In this document: positions 55,880-61,652 of the stretch, piece after piece
How the letters are laid out: every line of letters starts with the position of its first letter
Position numbering within the stretch: the stretch's first letter is position 1
Position numbers and translations under genes: made by a program
Assembly: GCF_000425645.1 (NCBI RefSeq)
Contig: NZ_KE384430.1
Span: 620,001-684,000, forward strand
From: Gaetbulibacter saemankumensis DSM 17032
GTDB taxonomy: Bacteria; Bacteroidota; Bacteroidia; Flavobacteriales; Flavobacteriaceae
Reading direction: 5' to 3'
DNA length: 64,000 nt
The notes under the pieces: model-generated
What the model was told of the DNA's origin: nothing
Seen by the model: only the letters and a program-made list of their open reading frames with translations
Databases searched by the model: none

Positions 55880-56617
55880 ATGAAATTTTTTAAATACATT
55901 TTCTGGATTATTTACCGTGTTTGGTTTTATGTGCTCATCGCCATACCAATAGTGGTTTTGTTTCCTTTCTTATTAATTTCTATTTTAAAGGAGTCCTGGT
56001 ATCCGTTCTTTTTTAAATTGGCTCGTATTTGGGCAAAATTTATTCTGTTCGGTATGGGCTTTCGGGTTAGCATTATTCGAGAGCAATTATTAGATGTTCA
56101 TAAAAGCTATATGTTTATCGCCAATCATACCTCCATGACCGATATTATGCTTATGTTGGTAGCTGTGAAAAATCCGTTTGTGTTTGTCGGAAAAAAAGAA
56201 TTGGCTAGCATTCCTTTATTCGGATTTTTCTATAAGCGAACCTGTATTTTGGTTGATAGAAATTCGGTCAAAAGTAGGCAGGCTGTATTTTTAAGAGCAC
56301 AAAGGCGGTTAAGGTCTGGACTGAGCATTTGTATTTTTCCGGAAGGTGGAGTCCCAGAAGAACATATTGAATTAGACGAATTTAAAGATGGTGCTTTTAG
56401 GTTAGCCATTAATCATAATATTCCAGTAGTGCCTTTAACTTTTATAGATAATAAAAGACGATTGTCTTACACTTTTTTTAGTGGCGGTCCGGGAATTATG
56501 CGTGTTAAGAAGCATCGGTTCCTGTGTACTGAAGATTTGACAATAAAAGATACAAAAGTGCTTAATGAAACCTCCCGAAATATTATTTTGAGTGAATTAA
56601 GAGTTTATAATAAATAA
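55880..56617 (+). CDS. plsC: 1-acyl-sn-glycerol-3-phosphate acyltransferase
   Basis: Membrane-bound acyltransferase making phosphatidic acid. Two N-terminal hydrophobic helices, then the catalytic NHTSMTD (HX4D) near 72-78, FVGKKELASIPLFGFF, and FPEGGVPEE near 150-158 for glycerol-3-phosphate binding. ATG 55880 is preferred; the alternative TTG 55871 adds three residues. A terminator follows immediately. Confidence 0.93.
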   Translation: MKFFKYIFWIIYRVWFYVLIAIPIVVLFPFLLISILKESWYPFFFKLARIWAKFILFGMGFRVSIIREQLLDVHKSYMFIANHTSMTDIMLMLVAVKNPFVFVGKKELASIPLFGFFYKRTCILVDRNSVKSRQAVFLRAQRRLRSGLSICIFPEGGVPEEHIELDEFKDGAFRLAINHNIPVVPLTFIDNKRRLSYTFFSGGPGIMRVKKHRFLCTEDLTIKDTKVLNETSRNIILSELRVYNK

Positions 56618-56650
56618 AAAAAAGCTGCTTTGGGGAGAGCAGCTTTTTTA
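56618..56650 (+). terminator. rho-independent terminator after plsC
   Basis: Stem AAAAAAGCTGCT/AGCAGCTTTTTT (56618-56629, 56638-56649) with an 8-nt loop and a T run; it could serve the convergent barrel gene too. Confidence 0.85.
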
Positions 56651-56701
56651 AGATATTGATTTCTGAGCTTAAAAAATCAATATCAAGGTCTAACCAAAAA
56701 C

Positions 56702-58192
56702 CTAGAATTTTATGGCGAATCCAGTATAAACTCCAATAAAATAAGGGGTAAAATCACCGTATGTTTTATTAAAGGTGTTTAATTGATATTTAAATATTGG
56801 CTCAAAGTTAAAATCTATTTTTTTAGAAACCTGATAGTTAAAACCAACACCAAGGTTAGCGCTATAGCTTAAGTTATTGATATTATTGGCTTCACCCAAC
56901 AGTGTTCTAGATCCTCCTTGAGGTTCGGAATATATTCTATTGCTATTCAGAAATAACGAGCTAAATCCTCCAATAATATTGACGCCTAGTTTTTTATTCA
57001 CTAAGGCATATTCAATTTCTAATGGGACCTCTATATAACCGATAGATTGATTTATACTGGTATTTACAGTGTTAAGAGCAATCGTATTGTTCGCGGCTAA
57101 ATTTTCTTTACTAATAAAGGACATGTCTCCTTGCGGATTAATATTAGAGGTCTTAATACTTGGAATGGTTCCAGTGCCAGCAAGGGTGCCAACTGATTGG
57201 AAGGCAATAACATTTTCGGTATTGTACCCTAAATTGACTCTGTTTATCCCAGAGCGGATTTTTATTTTATTGTTTACAGCATAACTTGCATTAATACCGT
57301 AGCTCATATTTAATTCGCCAGACTTTGGACTGTTACTAAATTGCATATCTATTGATGAGCCTGAACCTAAACTATTAAAATATACAGGAGCTATGTTAGG
57401 TGCTAGCGCCCAGCGATTATTTTTCTTTTTAACGTTTACGATATCATCGCTTGATGCTGCTATTTGTGTAGCTGCTATAGCTTCTTCAATAGTAATTTCA
57501 TTAGTAATTTCATTAGTATTTGAATCCTCTTTGGTTTTCGCAACACTAGAGGGGTTTTCGTAAGTGTCTATAATAAGTTTTTTTGCTTTTCTGGGTTTAA
57601 CTAGCAATGGATTTTCTTCATTATTACGAGGTGTATTTGAAGATGTATTATTATTAGCTATAATGGCTGCTGTCTGATTTTGAGCATTCTTGGGTGCTAA
57701 AGGATAATTCGATTTTTTTAAAGTCTTATTATCGCTGGAATTTGAACTAGCAGTCTCTGATTTTGCTATTGTAACATCTTCAGAAGAAGTTAAGCTTGAA
57801 TTTTGATTCTGAATTTTTGAGGTATTATCTGAAGTTTTTTCAGCATTTGAATTGCCGTCATCAGAATTATTAGTTACAAATTGATCACTTCCTGAGGTCT
57901 CTAAATCTTTAATTAATATATTTTCAGGCAGATTTGTTTCCGTGTCAACAACCTGATTATTTATATTATTGTTGTAATCTTGGTTGTTAAAAATAGTATA
58001 CCCTGTGGTTAATAATAGTAATAATATAGCAGCGGCTCCAGCATAACGCCACCAGACTGGAATAACGCGGCGCTTTTTGTTTTTCGATTTAAGTTCGGCT
58101 TCAATATTTTTCCAAACAGCATCCTTTGGAGTTGCTTCGAAATCTTTTAAGCCTTCCTGAAATAGCCGGTCTATGTGTTTTTTATCATTCAT
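56702..58192 (-). CDS. anti-sigma-like protein fused to an outer-membrane beta-barrel (Dma-like)
   Basis: A 496-residue protein with three parts. Residues 1-48 are charged and helical (KHIDRLFQEGLKDFEATPKDAVWKNI), like the cytoplasmic part of an ECF anti-sigma factor. A membrane helix follows at about 49-68 (RYAGAAAILLLLLTTGYTIF). A Ser/Asn-rich linker, 70-255, leads to a C-terminal region of amphipathic beta strands ending in aromatic/Phe (GFAIKF), typical of an outer-membrane barrel. The start overlaps the sigma factor's stop. The layout matches the dual-membrane-spanning anti-sigma (Dma) type reported in Bacteroides, as I recall. Alternative: a sensor unrelated to Dma. Confidence 0.8.
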   Translation of the reverse strand: MNDKKHIDRLFQEGLKDFEATPKDAVWKNIEAELKSKNKKRRVIPVWWRYAGAAAILLLLLTTGYTIFNNQDYNNNINNQVVDTETNLPENILIKDLETSGSDQFVTNNSDDGNSNAEKTSDNTSKIQNQNSSLTSSEDVTIAKSETASSNSSDNKTLKKSNYPLAPKNAQNQTAAIIANNNTSSNTPRNNEENPLLVKPRKAKKLIIDTYENPSSVAKTKEDSNTNEITNEITIEEAIAATQIAASSDDIVNVKKKNNRWALAPNIAPVYFNSLGSGSSIDMQFSNSPKSGELNMSYGINASYAVNNKIKIRSGINRVNLGYNTENVIAFQSVGTLAGTGTIPSIKTSNINPQGDMSFISKENLAANNTIALNTVNTSINQSIGYIEVPLEIEYALVNKKLGVNIIGGFSSLFLNSNRIYSEPQGGSRTLLGEANNINNLSYSANLGVGFNYQVSKKIDFNFEPIFKYQLNTFNKTYGDFTPYFIGVYTGFAIKF

Positions 58193-58734
58193 TATAATGA
58201 TTTTAAGCGCTCAGTTGATTTGTAATCTTCTATAGTTTGCTTCAAAATTTGCCGAGCACGTGCTAAATTCGATTTAGAGGTGCCTGTGCTAATATTGAGC
58301 ATACTAGCAATATCTTTATGCGAATAACCATCAAGAACGTAAAGGTTAAAAACCAAGCGGTATCTGTCTGGCAACTCTTGTATTATTTTTAATAGATAAT
58401 CAATAGAAATAGTGTCTTCATCCAGATCTATATAATTATCTTCTAAGGTGTTTTCGTTGGTTATATCGAATACCTTCTCCTTTCGGTATTCTTGTAAAAC
58501 CCTGTTTATTGTAACACGTTTTAACCAGCCTTCAAAAGAACCTTTGCCTTTGTATTGTCCAATTTTATCGAAAATGGTTAAAAATGATTCTTGTAAATTG
58601 TCCTGTGCTTCAGTATAGTTACGTGAATACTTCAGGCACAAAGCAAATAATTTACTCGCATAGAGTTTATATAATTCACTTTGTGCCCCAGTATCATTCT
58701 TTTTACATTTTTCTATGAGTTGTTTTAAACTCAA
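58192..58734 (-). CDS. ECF-type RNA polymerase sigma factor
   Basis: A 180-residue sigma-70 family factor with region 2 (NYTEAQDNLQESFLTIFDKIGQYKGKGSFEGWLKRVTINRV, about 40-79) and region 4 helix-turn-helix (LDGYSHKDIASMLNISTGTSKSNLARARQILK, about 134-165). There is no extra domain. The 3' end overlaps the start of the barrel protein (TGA/ATG), so the two are translationally coupled and the barrel protein is probably its regulator. It lies 17 bp after the lipoprotein gene. Confidence 0.94.
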   Translation of the reverse strand: MSLKQLIEKCKKNDTGAQSELYKLYASKLFALCLKYSRNYTEAQDNLQESFLTIFDKIGQYKGKGSFEGWLKRVTINRVLQEYRKEKVFDITNENTLEDNYIDLDEDTISIDYLLKIIQELPDRYRLVFNLYVLDGYSHKDIASMLNISTGTSKSNLARARQILKQTIEDYKSTERLKSL

Positions 58735-58751
58735 ATTGAACGCATATTAGT

Positions 58752-59174
58752 TTAACTTTCAGTTTCGCCTACAACAGGAACTTCAATAATTAAATATTGG
58801 TCTTCACCTTGTTCGTCTTCACCTTGCCAAAATTTAAATACATAAGGACCGCTACCGGTAACTACAAAGTTAAATGAAGATTCTACAAGTTCAGCATCAA
58901 AATCTTCACAATCATCTTTTTCTAAAACATAGGTTACAGGAGCAACCGTACGTTCATTAAATACTTTTTTATAATAGAACTCTCTAAAATAGTGGCAGGT
59001 TGTAGGTCTAAGATACGAAACTGTAATTGGGTAGGTTTCTCCGTAAATAAATTCTTCAGGAATTTCTACACTTTCTACAGGTAATATTTCATAATAAAAA
59101 TCATACCCGTCATCATTACTACAAGCCGTAAATAAAAATAAAATTAAACCTAGGGCGAATAACTTCTTCATCAT
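58752..59174 (-). CDS. small lipoprotein upstream of the sigma factor
   Basis: A 140-residue lipoprotein: signal MMKKLFALGLILFLF, lipobox TACS with the Cys near 18. The mature part is beta-rich and has three further Cys residues (TTCHYF, KDDCED) that could pair. I do not recognise a family. It would be transcribed ahead of the sigma factor and barrel protein; a target of, or signal for, that pair is possible but is inference. Confidence 0.75.
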   Translation of the reverse strand: MMKKLFALGLILFLFTACSNDDGYDFYYEILPVESVEIPEEFIYGETYPITVSYLRPTTCHYFREFYYKKVFNERTVAPVTYVLEKDDCEDFDAELVESSFNFVVTGSGPYVFKFWQGEDEQGEDQYLIIEVPVVGETES

Positions 59175-59251
59175 AAATAAAATTAATGTTTAAACAATTT
59201 TTTATTTGTAGATGCATTAAGAATTAAATGGTTGCGTGTAAGGATATAAAA

Positions 59252-59273
59252 AAATCCCGCTATTGCGGGATTT
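59252..59273 (-). terminator. terminator downstream of recA
   Basis: Stem AAATCCCGC/GCGGGATTT (59252-59260, 59265-59273) with loop TATT. On the minus strand it is followed by a T run (the A run at about 59245-59251 on plus), so it ends the recA transcript. Confidence 0.85.
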
Positions 59274-59281
59274 AAATTTTA

Positions 59282-60292
59282 TTAGCCTTCCGAGGCTGCT
59301 TTGGCAATGGCTCGAACTTGTGTTTCGAGCTCATCCATTAGTTCCGGATTATCTTTTATAAGTGTTTTTACAGCATCACGCCCTTGCCCCAGTTTGGTGT
59401 CGCCATAACTAAACCAAGAACCGCTCTTTTTAATAATGTCGTTTTCAACGGCGATATCAAGGATTTCACCAACTTTACTAACGCCTTCGCCATACATAAT
59501 GTCGAATTCGGCTGTTTTAAATGGTGGAGCAACTTTGTTTTTTACAACTTTAACACGTGTTTTGTTACCGGTCACATTACCATCGGTTTCTTTTATCTGA
59601 GTAGAACGACGAATGTCTAATCTAACAGAAGCATAGAATTTTAAGGCGTTACCACCGGTAGTTGTTTCAGGATTACCGAACATAACACCAATTTTTTCAC
59701 GTAATTGGTTAATGAAGATAACGGTACAATTAGTTTTACTTATTGAAGAAGTTAATTTACGTAATGCCTGAGACATTAAACGCGCGTGAAGTCCCATTTT
59801 AGAATCTCCCATTTCCCCTTCAATTTCACTTTTTGGTGTTAGTGCCGCTACAGAGTCCACTACAACAATATCAATAGCGCCAGAACGAATTAAATTATCG
59901 GCAATTTCTAAGGCTTGTTCACCATTATCGGGTTGAGAAATAATAAGGTTATCCAGGTCAACACCAAGTTTTTCAGCATAAAATCGATCGAAAGCATGTT
60001 CAGCGTCAATAAAAGCAGCAATACCTCCGGTTTTTTGAGCCTCAGCAATAGCATGTAATGTTAAGGTTGTTTTACCCGATGATTCTGGTCCGTATATTTC
60101 GATAACACGCCCACGAGGATACCCACCAACGCCTAAGGCAATATCTAAACCTAAAGATCCTGATGAAATGGCATCAACATCTACAACCGCCTGGTCGCTC
60201 ATTTTCATTACAGTACCTTTTCCGTAAGCCTTATCTAACTTATCAAGTGTAAGTTTAAGTGCTTTTAATTTTGCATCTTTTTCGCTACTCAT
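59282..60292 (-). CDS. recA: recombinase RecA
   Basis: DNA strand exchange and SOS co-protease. The 336-residue protein has Walker A GPESSGKT at 68-75, [28 protein letters not shown] (Walker B), and [30 protein letters not shown] (L2). It is followed by a strong terminator. Confidence 0.98.
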
Positions 60293-60389
60293 TTCTTTTT
60301 TATATTTTTTCTAAACTAATACGCTAAAATATAACAAGTTTTATCATCATACAATTTTATCACGCAACCTTTTTACACATTTTGCATCT

Positions 60390-60452
60390 ATGTTAAAAGA
60401 GTGGGAAATTTTTGCTATGAAATTACCGGAACATGATAATCATGTAGACTAA
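60390..60452 (+). CDS. 20-codon small ORF before an orphan terminator
   Basis: ATG 60390 to TAA 60452 encodes a short, acidic 20-residue peptide. It lies in the recA-trhO gap and is followed 16 bp later by a strong terminator that no other gene uses. It could be a peptide gene, part of a small RNA, or chance. No ribosome site stands out. Confidence 0.25.
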   Translation: MLKEWEIFAMKLPEHDNHVD

Positions 60453-60468
60453 CTCAAATTATTTTTCT

Positions 60469-60502
60469 AAGCACCCAATGATTTCATTGGGTGCTTTTTT
60501 GT
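60469..60502 (+). terminator. strong terminator with no annotated gene in front
   Basis: Perfect 13-bp stem AAGCACCCAATGA/TCATTGGGTGCTT (60469-60481, 60484-60496), followed by TTTTG. The plus-strand transcript it ends would have to begin in the recA-trhO gap, near 60380-60400. On the minus strand it has a weaker T tract. Confidence 0.8.
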
Positions 60503-60530
60503 TTAGTTATGGCACTATTTTTAAAAGTTG

Positions 60531-60538
60531 TACCTTTG
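60531..60538 (+). promoter_or_regulatory. candidate -7 box of trhO promoter
   Basis: TACCTTTG matches the Bacteroidota -7 consensus and lies 40 bp before the trhO ATG. No clear -33 TTG is present at the usual spacing. Confidence 0.42.
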
Positions 60539-60578
60539 CGGCTTTAAAATATTCTTTAACCTTAAAAATTAGTATAGC

Positions 60579-61652
60579 ATGCAACTGTACAATAAGTTAA
60601 GCGCCAAAGAAAGAGCAGAATTAATCGATAAAGCAGGAAAAAGTCGATTAACACTTTCTTTTTATCAATATGCCAAAATTGGCAATCCGCAAGTTTTTCG
60701 AGATCACTTGTTTTTAGTTTGGAATAATCTTGATGTTTTAGGTCGAATTTACGTGGCTAACGAAGGCATAAATGCACAGTTATCTTTGCCAGCGGATCGA
60801 TTTAATGAATTTAAAACACATTTAGATAGTGTTGAATTCTTAAAAGGTATTCGTTTAAATATTGCTGTGGAACAGGATAATAAATCGTTCTTGAAACTTA
60901 AAGTAAAAGTTCGAAATAAGATTGTGGCCGATGGATTAAACGATGATACTTTCGATGTAACTAACAAAGGGATTCATTTAAAAGCTGAGCAGTTTAATAA
61001 ATATATAGAAGACGAGAATACTGTCCTGGTTGATATGCGTAACCATTATGAAAGTGAAATAGGTCACTTTAAAAATGCGGTTACACCAGATGTAGACACG
61101 TTTAGAGATTCACTTGATATTATAGAGGAGGATTTAAAAGACCATAAAGAAGATAAAAACCTGGTAATGTATTGTACTGGAGGTATTCGTTGTGAAAAGG
61201 CCAGTGCTTACTTTAAACATAAAGGGTTTAAAAATGTATTTCAATTAGAAGGAGGAATCATAGAGTACACCAGACAGGTAAAAGAACAAAATTTAGAGAA
61301 TAAGTTTTTAGGACAGAATTTTGTATTTGACGATCGTCGGGCTGAACGCATTAGTGATGATGTTATTGCCAACTGTCATCAGTGTGGAGAGCCTTTCGAT
61401 GTGCATACTAATTGCGCCAATGAAGCCTGTCATTTATTGTTTATTCAATGTCCGAATTGTAAGGAGGAAATGGAAAATTGTTGTTCAACCAATTGCATGG
61501 AGATTAATAGATTGCCATACGAAGAACAAAAAGCTCTAAGAAAAGGACAAGGAAATAGTAATGATATTTTCAAAAAAGGGCGTGCCAATCACTTGCCTTA
61601 TAAAAAGGATTTAAGGAATATTTTTGAAGTGTTAAAATCCAACAAAATTTAG
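60579..61652 (+). CDS. trhO: tRNA uridine(34) hydroxylase TrhO (rhodanese-type)
   Basis: Oxygen-dependent hydroxylation of U34 to ho5U in tRNA (E. coli YceA/TrhO). The 357-residue protein has the N-terminal acylphosphatase-like domain (RIYVANEGINAQLSLP), a central rhodanese domain with VDMRNHYESEIGHFKNA near 152-168 and active-site MYCTGGIRCEKA near 199-210, and a Cys-rich C-terminus (CHQCGEPF, CPNC, CCSTNC). It is followed 7 bp later by the U32 gene, an alternative route to the same modification. Confidence 0.93.
   Translation: MQLYNKLSAKERAELIDKAGKSRLTLSFYQYAKIGNPQVFRDHLFLVWNNLDVLGRIYVANEGINAQLSLPADRFNEFKTHLDSVEFLKGIRLNIAVEQDNKSFLKLKVKVRNKIVADGLNDDTFDVTNKGIHLKAEQFNKYIEDENTVLVDMRNHYESEIGHFKNAVTPDVDTFRDSLDIIEEDLKDHKEDKNLVMYCTGGIRCEKASAYFKHKGFKNVFQLEGGIIEYTRQVKEQNLENKFLGQNFVFDDRRAERISDDVIANCHQCGEPFDVHTNCANEACHLLFIQCPNCKEEMENCCSTNCMEINRLPYEEQKALRKGQGNSNDIFKKGRANHLPYKKDLRNIFEVLKSNKI

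Follow-up and report, generated by a model that had tools for sequence, protein, structure and literature searches.

A predicted Dma/Reo-type anti-sigma factor spanning both membranes, and its candidate promoter, in Gaetbulibacter saemankumensis

The locus described here raises the question of whether a single polypeptide, anchored in both membranes, could control a cytoplasmic ECF sigma factor from the outer membrane. It lies in a stretch of 64,000 nucleotides of Gaetbulibacter saemankumensis DSM 17032 (contig NZ_KE384430.1, positions 620,001 to 684,000), which is referred to below as the window and is numbered from its first base. A first-pass annotation had recognized a sigma gene overlapping the gene of a 496-residue protein, and had proposed that this protein spans both membranes, resembles the Dma anti-sigma factors of Bacteroides and bypasses the usual proteolysis steps.

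Layout of the gene pair and of the 496-residue protein

Both open reading frames are present as annotated, with an overlap of one base in TAATG, and they belong to the following arrangement:

56702..58192, minus strand: gene of the predicted dual-membrane anti-sigma protein, 496 aa, whole (ORF, alignment A1, structure model)
58064..58192, minus strand: residues 1-43, two-helix cytoplasmic part, proposed as the sigma-binding domain (model, conservation)
57989..58063, minus strand: residues 44-68, single inner-membrane helix (model, hydrophobicity)
57422..57988, minus strand: residues 69-257, polar, poorly conserved and mostly unstructured periplasmic tether (pLDDT, relatives)
56705..57421, minus strand: residues 258-496, modelled eight-stranded outer-membrane beta-barrel with a C-terminal Phe (model, Foldseek, VIA-align)
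58192..58734, minus strand: ECF sigma factor gene, 180 aa (ORF list, Pfam, TIGR02937)
58752..59174, minus strand: first gene of the operon, encoding a 140-aa lipoprotein of an unnamed family (kept upstream of the sigma gene)
59210..59236, minus strand: predicted promoter of the sigma factor, CGCAACC-N15-CATCT, before the operon (conservation, counts)

The sigma protein scores above cut-off for Sigma70_r2, Sigma70_r4, Sigma70_r4_2 and Sigma70_ECF of Pfam as well as for TIGR02937, and is one of 10 sigma-like genes found in the genome with a profile of its own family. Its tight coupling to the large gene, which had been claimed for the window, extends to all 20 relatives read (L002-L021), in which a sigma gene directly precedes the large gene and the two either overlap, by 8 bases at most, or are 1 base apart at most. 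A lipoprotein gene lies ahead of the sigma gene in all 19 relatives with enough flanking sequence, one of which (L018) has an additional ORF between the two, encoding a 110-aa lipoprotein-like product (2097-2429). The 140-aa lipoprotein of the window matches no Pfam family above cut-off and no NCBIfam family. NigD was rejected as its identity, as there is no Pfam NigD match and no NigD_C match in the whole genome at E <= 1; when profiles were compared with seven NigD-type proteins, the alignment was confined to the signal peptide (27 columns).

The annotation had described a short cytoplasmic part, one helix, a long linker and a barrel-like end, and this layout is borne out by a structure model and by conservation over 19 relatives. 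Alignment A1 comprised the window protein and these relatives, which are 40-53% identical to it (L014 was omitted from alignments because it lies on a short contig with gaps). The start of the protein is nearly invariant (MNDKKHIDR..., W27), and the C-terminal half is conserved and ends in KF. Mean identity between the window protein and the 19 relatives is 73% over residues 1-43, 15% over residues 69-230 and 58% over residues 261-496, a pattern which indicates that the layout is selected rather than due to chance. The N-terminal part, tether and barrel share a single open frame in all 20 rows. The model places the N-terminal helices at residues 3-16 and 24-35 and the inner-membrane helix at residues 46-69; the 19-residue Kyte-Doolittle maximum (1.79) falls at residue 43, and nothing exceeds 1.6 after residue 80. 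The same is true throughout A1, as the best hydrophobic segment begins at residue 43-51 in the window protein and in 19/19 relatives, with no other segment above 1.6 after residue 80. The linker of 189 residues consists to 67% of N/S/T/K/E/D/Q, is devoid of Trp and Cys, and has a modelled pLDDT below 50 over residues 68-200; among the relatives, the tether varies from 137 to 284 residues.

The full-protein model built from A1 has low overall confidence (mean pLDDT 49, pTM 0.36). Within it, eight main strands lie between residues 261 and 493, with ten-residue mean pLDDT values of 43 to 82 across the strands, mostly 65-82, the last strand being the worst. At E <= 0.001, Foldseek returned four matches, three to OmpA and one to a Legionella porin (best E 5.1e-5), so that every one was an outer-membrane barrel, and VIA-align of residues 256-496 gave a Z of 13.8 to OmpW and OmpA, with 163-168 residues aligned at an rmsd of 3.0-3.2. 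Structure prediction, a check that had been suggested for the full protein, yields an eight-stranded outer-membrane barrel, at modest model confidence. With an inner-membrane helix near one end and this modelled barrel at the other, the layout supports the proposed dual-membrane span of one polypeptide.

Domain scans gave little for the window protein, as no Pfam family matched above cut-off and the best barrel match was OMP_b-brl at E 0.1; a match to an anti-sigma model in the Pfam and NCBIfam scans (E 0.041) was below cut-off and was not counted. A Pfam scan of the close relative L003 returned no barrel match at all. Among four relatives of the same layout that were scanned, three (L213, L218, L219) pass PF13568 or PF13505, and L156 falls just short. 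Contact between the N-terminal part and the sigma factor was modelled as a fused chain of the sigma factor and the first 75 residues in L003, and the result (pTM 0.41, N-terminal part below pLDDT 50) was too weak to use.

Kinship with the Dma and Reo anti-sigma factors

The architecture of the window protein is already in the literature under the names Dma and Reo, and is therefore not a new mechanism. With Dma the window pair shares the domain order, the neighbouring sigma gene, in the case of Dma2 the three-gene operon, and an occurrence in Bacteroidota only (PMC13088901). With the EcfO/Reo system, known from Bacteroides fragilis and Phocaeicola vulgatus, it shares a large anti-sigma factor with an outer-membrane barrel encoded below the sigma gene, and a regulon that includes surface lipoproteins, which for EcfO/Reo are of the NigD family (PMC9308784, PMC13114119). 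The window pair differs from Dma in that it comes, judging by its kin, from another order of the class and has an operon lipoprotein that is not NigD, and it differs from EcfO/Reo in that its own genome has no NigD_C match. Published work supports such a type of protein: when Dma2 is lost, the consequence for vesicles depends on the partner sigma factor (PMC13088901), and two antibacterial toxins are better resisted by P. vulgatus strains in which a similarly built anti-sigma gene is not functional (PMC9308784).

As NigD genes are among those raised by Dma1 and EcfO in published work (PMC13088901, PMC13114119), NigD-bearing genomes were sought, and they stood in for the named Dma and Reo sequences in the comparisons that follow; the term Bacteroidales-like, as applied to them, is derived from NigD. 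They number 12 of the 295 genomes of the class. A wider profile of 22 rows (A4) matches 8 of the 10 NigD-bearing genomes that had given it no row, while the other two (G318, G397) supplied rows and match it by construction. At eight loci (L212-L218, L220; seven genomes, five genera and three families), a sigma gene adjoins a gene for a protein of 384-439 aa, and at six of them (L212-L216, L218) a NigD-type lipoprotein gene adjoins the pair; the order lipoprotein, sigma factor, anti-sigma factor is the same as in the window at L212 and L213. A4 matches the N-terminal part at five of the eight loci, the match at L216 being weak (E 0.003). In profile comparisons, the barrels match those of the Bacteroidales-like anti-sigma proteins (A7) at 98.2% (E 3e-14), over the barrel only, and the sigma factors match the NigD-linked Bacteroidales-like ones at 100%. 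Both A7 barrels that were scanned (L213, L218) pass Pfam cut-offs. Architecture, barrel and sigma profiles, and the lipoprotein gene adjoining the pair all uphold the kinship with the Bacteroidales Dma type that the annotation had suspected. Among open-licence papers, covered by title and by the start of the abstract, none dealt with a flavobacterial dual-membrane anti-sigma factor or with a promoter CGCAACC-N15-CATCT.

Within the family, the A1 profile matches 126 of 149 genomes (one per genus), some over part of its length only, and 21 of the 23 genomes that it does not match are smaller than 3 Mb. A class-level search matched 81 of 295 genomes, many of them weakly or partly; in the best 29 loci, a sigma-like ORF lies directly upstream on the same strand in 28, the exception (L183) being a barrel that lacks the N-terminal part. 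Five relatives (L168, L169, L171, L178, L179) are short (249-283 aa) and, by eye, share the N-terminal part and the helix while lacking a barrel-like end; they too lie beside sigma genes, which indicates that N-terminal part and helix together form a module existing with or without a barrel. In the distant relative L163 (457-2100), the N-terminal motif is present as a tandem duplicate ahead of the membrane helix.

The candidate promoter and its predicted targets

What is new here is a predicted two-box promoter, CGCAACC-N15-CATCT, ahead of the operon. It lies between recA and the lipoprotein gene in the window and in 19/19 relatives with flanking sequence, one of which (L007) has the variant TATCT. 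Beyond recA, the following divergent elements were found:

60363..60389, plus strand: second exact copy of the motif (genome scan, relatives)
60390..60501, plus strand: predicted short transcript in the recA-trhO gap, possibly a small RNA or a micropeptide gene (promoter copy, stem)

Of the 19 relatives, 18 share the divergent copy with the window (L007 with TATCT); it was not found in L018. A pattern scan of positions 59100-60700 returned sigma-70-like sites at chance level (8 vs 5.5) and 3 terminator-like sites vs 0.9. The genome as a whole has 5 exact sites and none of the reversed control, and the 149 family genomes have 448 sites vs 11 for the reversed control. G125 by itself accounts for 25 of these, many of them repeats with identical spacers that are probably a repeated element rather than promoters, and 423 remain without it. 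With up to three mismatches allowed, the count in the window's genome comes near background (121 vs 93), and this search was discarded.

Of the 126 genomes that encode the anti-sigma protein, 118 have the exact motif and 8 do not, and of the 23 others 1 has it (Fisher 1.1e-18), a table in which three genomes without a profile match (G136, G137, G139) were assigned by elimination and in which genome size and descent are confounded with co-occurrence, as 21 of the 23 protein-less genomes are below 3 Mb. From this co-occurrence and from the position of the motif, the two means by which an owner can be assigned given nine other sigma-like genes, we infer that the promoter belongs to this sigma factor. 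Farther afield in the class, a regular expression with spacers of 14-18 found the motif within 60 bases of the start of 9 of 31 sigma genes, which are 8 distinct places (L160 = L219), vs 0.01 expected by shuffling. All five short barrel-less relatives have a similar motif upstream. At the eight Bacteroidales-like loci (L212-L218, L220), no such motif was found in the 420 bases preceding the sigma gene, and a fixed-spacing matrix gave no match before the lipoprotein gene at L212 and L213, where a promoter may lie. That matrix was not useful upstream of distant sigma genes, because spacings vary.

Targets were read at 74 distinct sites in 14 genomes, namely the window's own and 13 picked mostly for having several sites (from G014, one of four sites was taken). 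After seven micropeptide sites had been set aside, 41 sites had an ORF of at least 60 aa starting within 90 bases and 26 had neither such an ORF nor a recognised peptide close behind (20 under the first reading). The first genes pass a lipoprotein rule in 33 of 41 cases, vs 4 of 61 window ORFs; under the stricter, original rule, which was loosened afterwards, the figures are 23/41 and 3/61, and under either rule the window background counts the lipoprotein of this operon. Of the 31 first genes distal to the operon, 23 pass. The significance of these excesses is overstated, as the genomes were chosen and many first genes are mutually related (three clusters make up 19 of the 31 distal genes). 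One recurring group carries SKPCGGPW (five genera, and the window's genome behind a one-mismatch site), and a looser cluster in several genera has WKLIEQ or WHL...GG motifs. Two peptide families, which were defined after being seen and hence describe rather than test, account for 13 of the 74 sites, or 7 by a narrower expression: a 28-aa membrane peptide ending in FSVNKKTDP or similar, and a 30-aa peptide ending mostly in NCKADGG, which lies beside trhO wherever trhO is within the stretch read.

In the window's genome, the five exact sites lie before the operon, before the short terminated transcript, before a 28-aa peptide, before a lipoprotein ORF and inside a gene. The 28-aa single-helix peptide directly follows the copy at C1:1475892-1475918 (L032) and has similar counterparts behind the motif in five other genera read. 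At C1:1557001, the site runs into the beginning of a divergent ORF, besides preceding the lipoprotein ORF. The fifth, inside a gene that by eye is amidohydrolase-like, was rejected as a target site and looks like chance.

The short transcript would end at a terminator-like stem of 12 pairs (60469-60496), which the pattern scan also found. From promoter to stem it can be aligned between the window and seven close relatives, out of the 18 with the divergent motif; the remaining ones are more divergent in sequence, and different short ORFs are encoded there in some of them. In several other genera, the 30-aa peptide is encoded at the recA-trhO position. Rfam gave no match at gathering level over 56400-61000, which includes the short transcript. 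The names recA, trhO and trpS are those assigned by NCBIfam, and TrhO we take to be rhodanese-related, like YceA. The SM6 promoter class of F. psychrophilum, whose -10 box is CGT, is reported to include an ECF sigma/anti-sigma pair, the rhodanese-related YceA and a regulatory RNA (PMC9723704); these targets resemble those predicted here, and the -10 box differs. Taken over the 14 genomes read, the predicted targets are largely small lipoproteins, suggesting a flavobacterial outer-membrane stress regulon.

Proposed mechanism, alternatives and implications

We consider it quite probable that the locus is a three-gene operon of a lipoprotein, an ECF sigma factor and a Dma/Reo-type anti-sigma factor, in which trouble with the barrel frees the sigma factor to transcribe a CGCAACC-N15-CATCT regulon; the operon itself is probably autoregulated. 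One helix would anchor the anti-sigma factor in the inner membrane and the barrel would anchor it in the outer membrane, with a flexible tether of ~190 residues between them. In the unstressed cell, we infer, the short N-terminal helices keep the sigma factor at the membrane. The N-terminal part would release the sigma factor, with or without proteolysis, once the barrel failed to assemble or sensed that the outer membrane had changed. The free sigma factor may then act on CGCAACC-N15-CATCT promoters of its own operon, of several small lipoproteins, of micropeptides and of the short RNA-like transcript by recA. Layout, sigma coupling and lipoprotein targets fit a switch for outer-membrane stress or remodelling, and such a response would parallel EcfO/Reo and Das1/Dma1 with their NigD lipoproteins in Bacteroidales.

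The release step is where the annotation's proposal meets its most serious competitor. In the case of RseA, sigma is freed by periplasmic and then intramembrane cleavage. Regulated proteolysis of the same kind, in which the tether is cut in the periplasm before an intramembrane cleavage and the barrel serves to shield the tether or to mark assembly, is a substantial possibility here, though we lean somewhat against it. A long, exposed, polar and poorly conserved tether would suit a protease that senses outer-membrane assembly, and an unfolded barrel could be the trigger; on the other hand, no cleavage site or protease is reported for Dma or Reo in the portions of published work covered. Release upon outer-membrane stress is proposed, with no release mechanism given, in those portions (PMC13088901, PMC9308784, PMC13114119). 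Proteolysis would oppose the claimed bypass more than the architecture.

A separation of the two halves, in which the N-terminal part is cleaved away as an atypical leader and the barrel is a conventional outer-membrane protein, appears very improbable. The barrel-less relatives beside sigma genes do indicate that the N-terminal part can act alone, but by inspection the window protein has no AXA-type signal-peptidase site just past the helix, and the unbroken frame of barrel, tether and N-terminal part in every row of A1 argues for one protein. It is also unlikely, if less so, that the motif is owned by another ECF sigma factor or shared by several, in which case the lipoprotein regulon would not be this pair's own. 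The ten sigma-like genes of the genome leave room for such an owner, the occurrence of GCAACC-N14-18-CATCT before sigma genes of the short barrel-less relatives would make the motif a trait of a wider sigma group, and the F. psychrophilum class with its other -10 box (CGT) likewise stands before an ECF pair (PMC9723704). Against this, the other nine sigma genes have no exact site beside them among the five in the genome, and presence of the motif tracks presence of the anti-sigma gene.

A further related system is RpoE/RseA of enterobacteria, in which an ECF sigma factor is kept at the inner membrane and freed on outer-membrane trouble, with small RNAs among its targets. The sigma factor would be held at the inner membrane in both systems, but RseA ends short of the outer membrane, and separate proteins and proteases relay the signal to it. 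A broader reading, which we come close to favouring and put forward tentatively, is that most genera of Flavobacteriaceae possess a core system of this kind, recA-linked where the locus was read, in which one polypeptide conveys the state of the outer membrane directly to a sigma factor that owns the CGCAACC-N15-CATCT promoter, with a dedicated regulon of surface lipoproteins, two conserved micropeptide families and a small RNA. Such a system, if real, would be to flavobacteria what the RpoE response is to enterobacteria, with a sensor of another design. In the literature covered, dual-membrane anti-sigma factors come from gut Bacteroidales, and the proteins described here represent a conserved flavobacterial branch. 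Together with the predicted promoter and targets, this branch would offer a direct, aerobic and genetically usable test of sensing and of sigma release, and many unassigned small lipoproteins would be linked to one switch.
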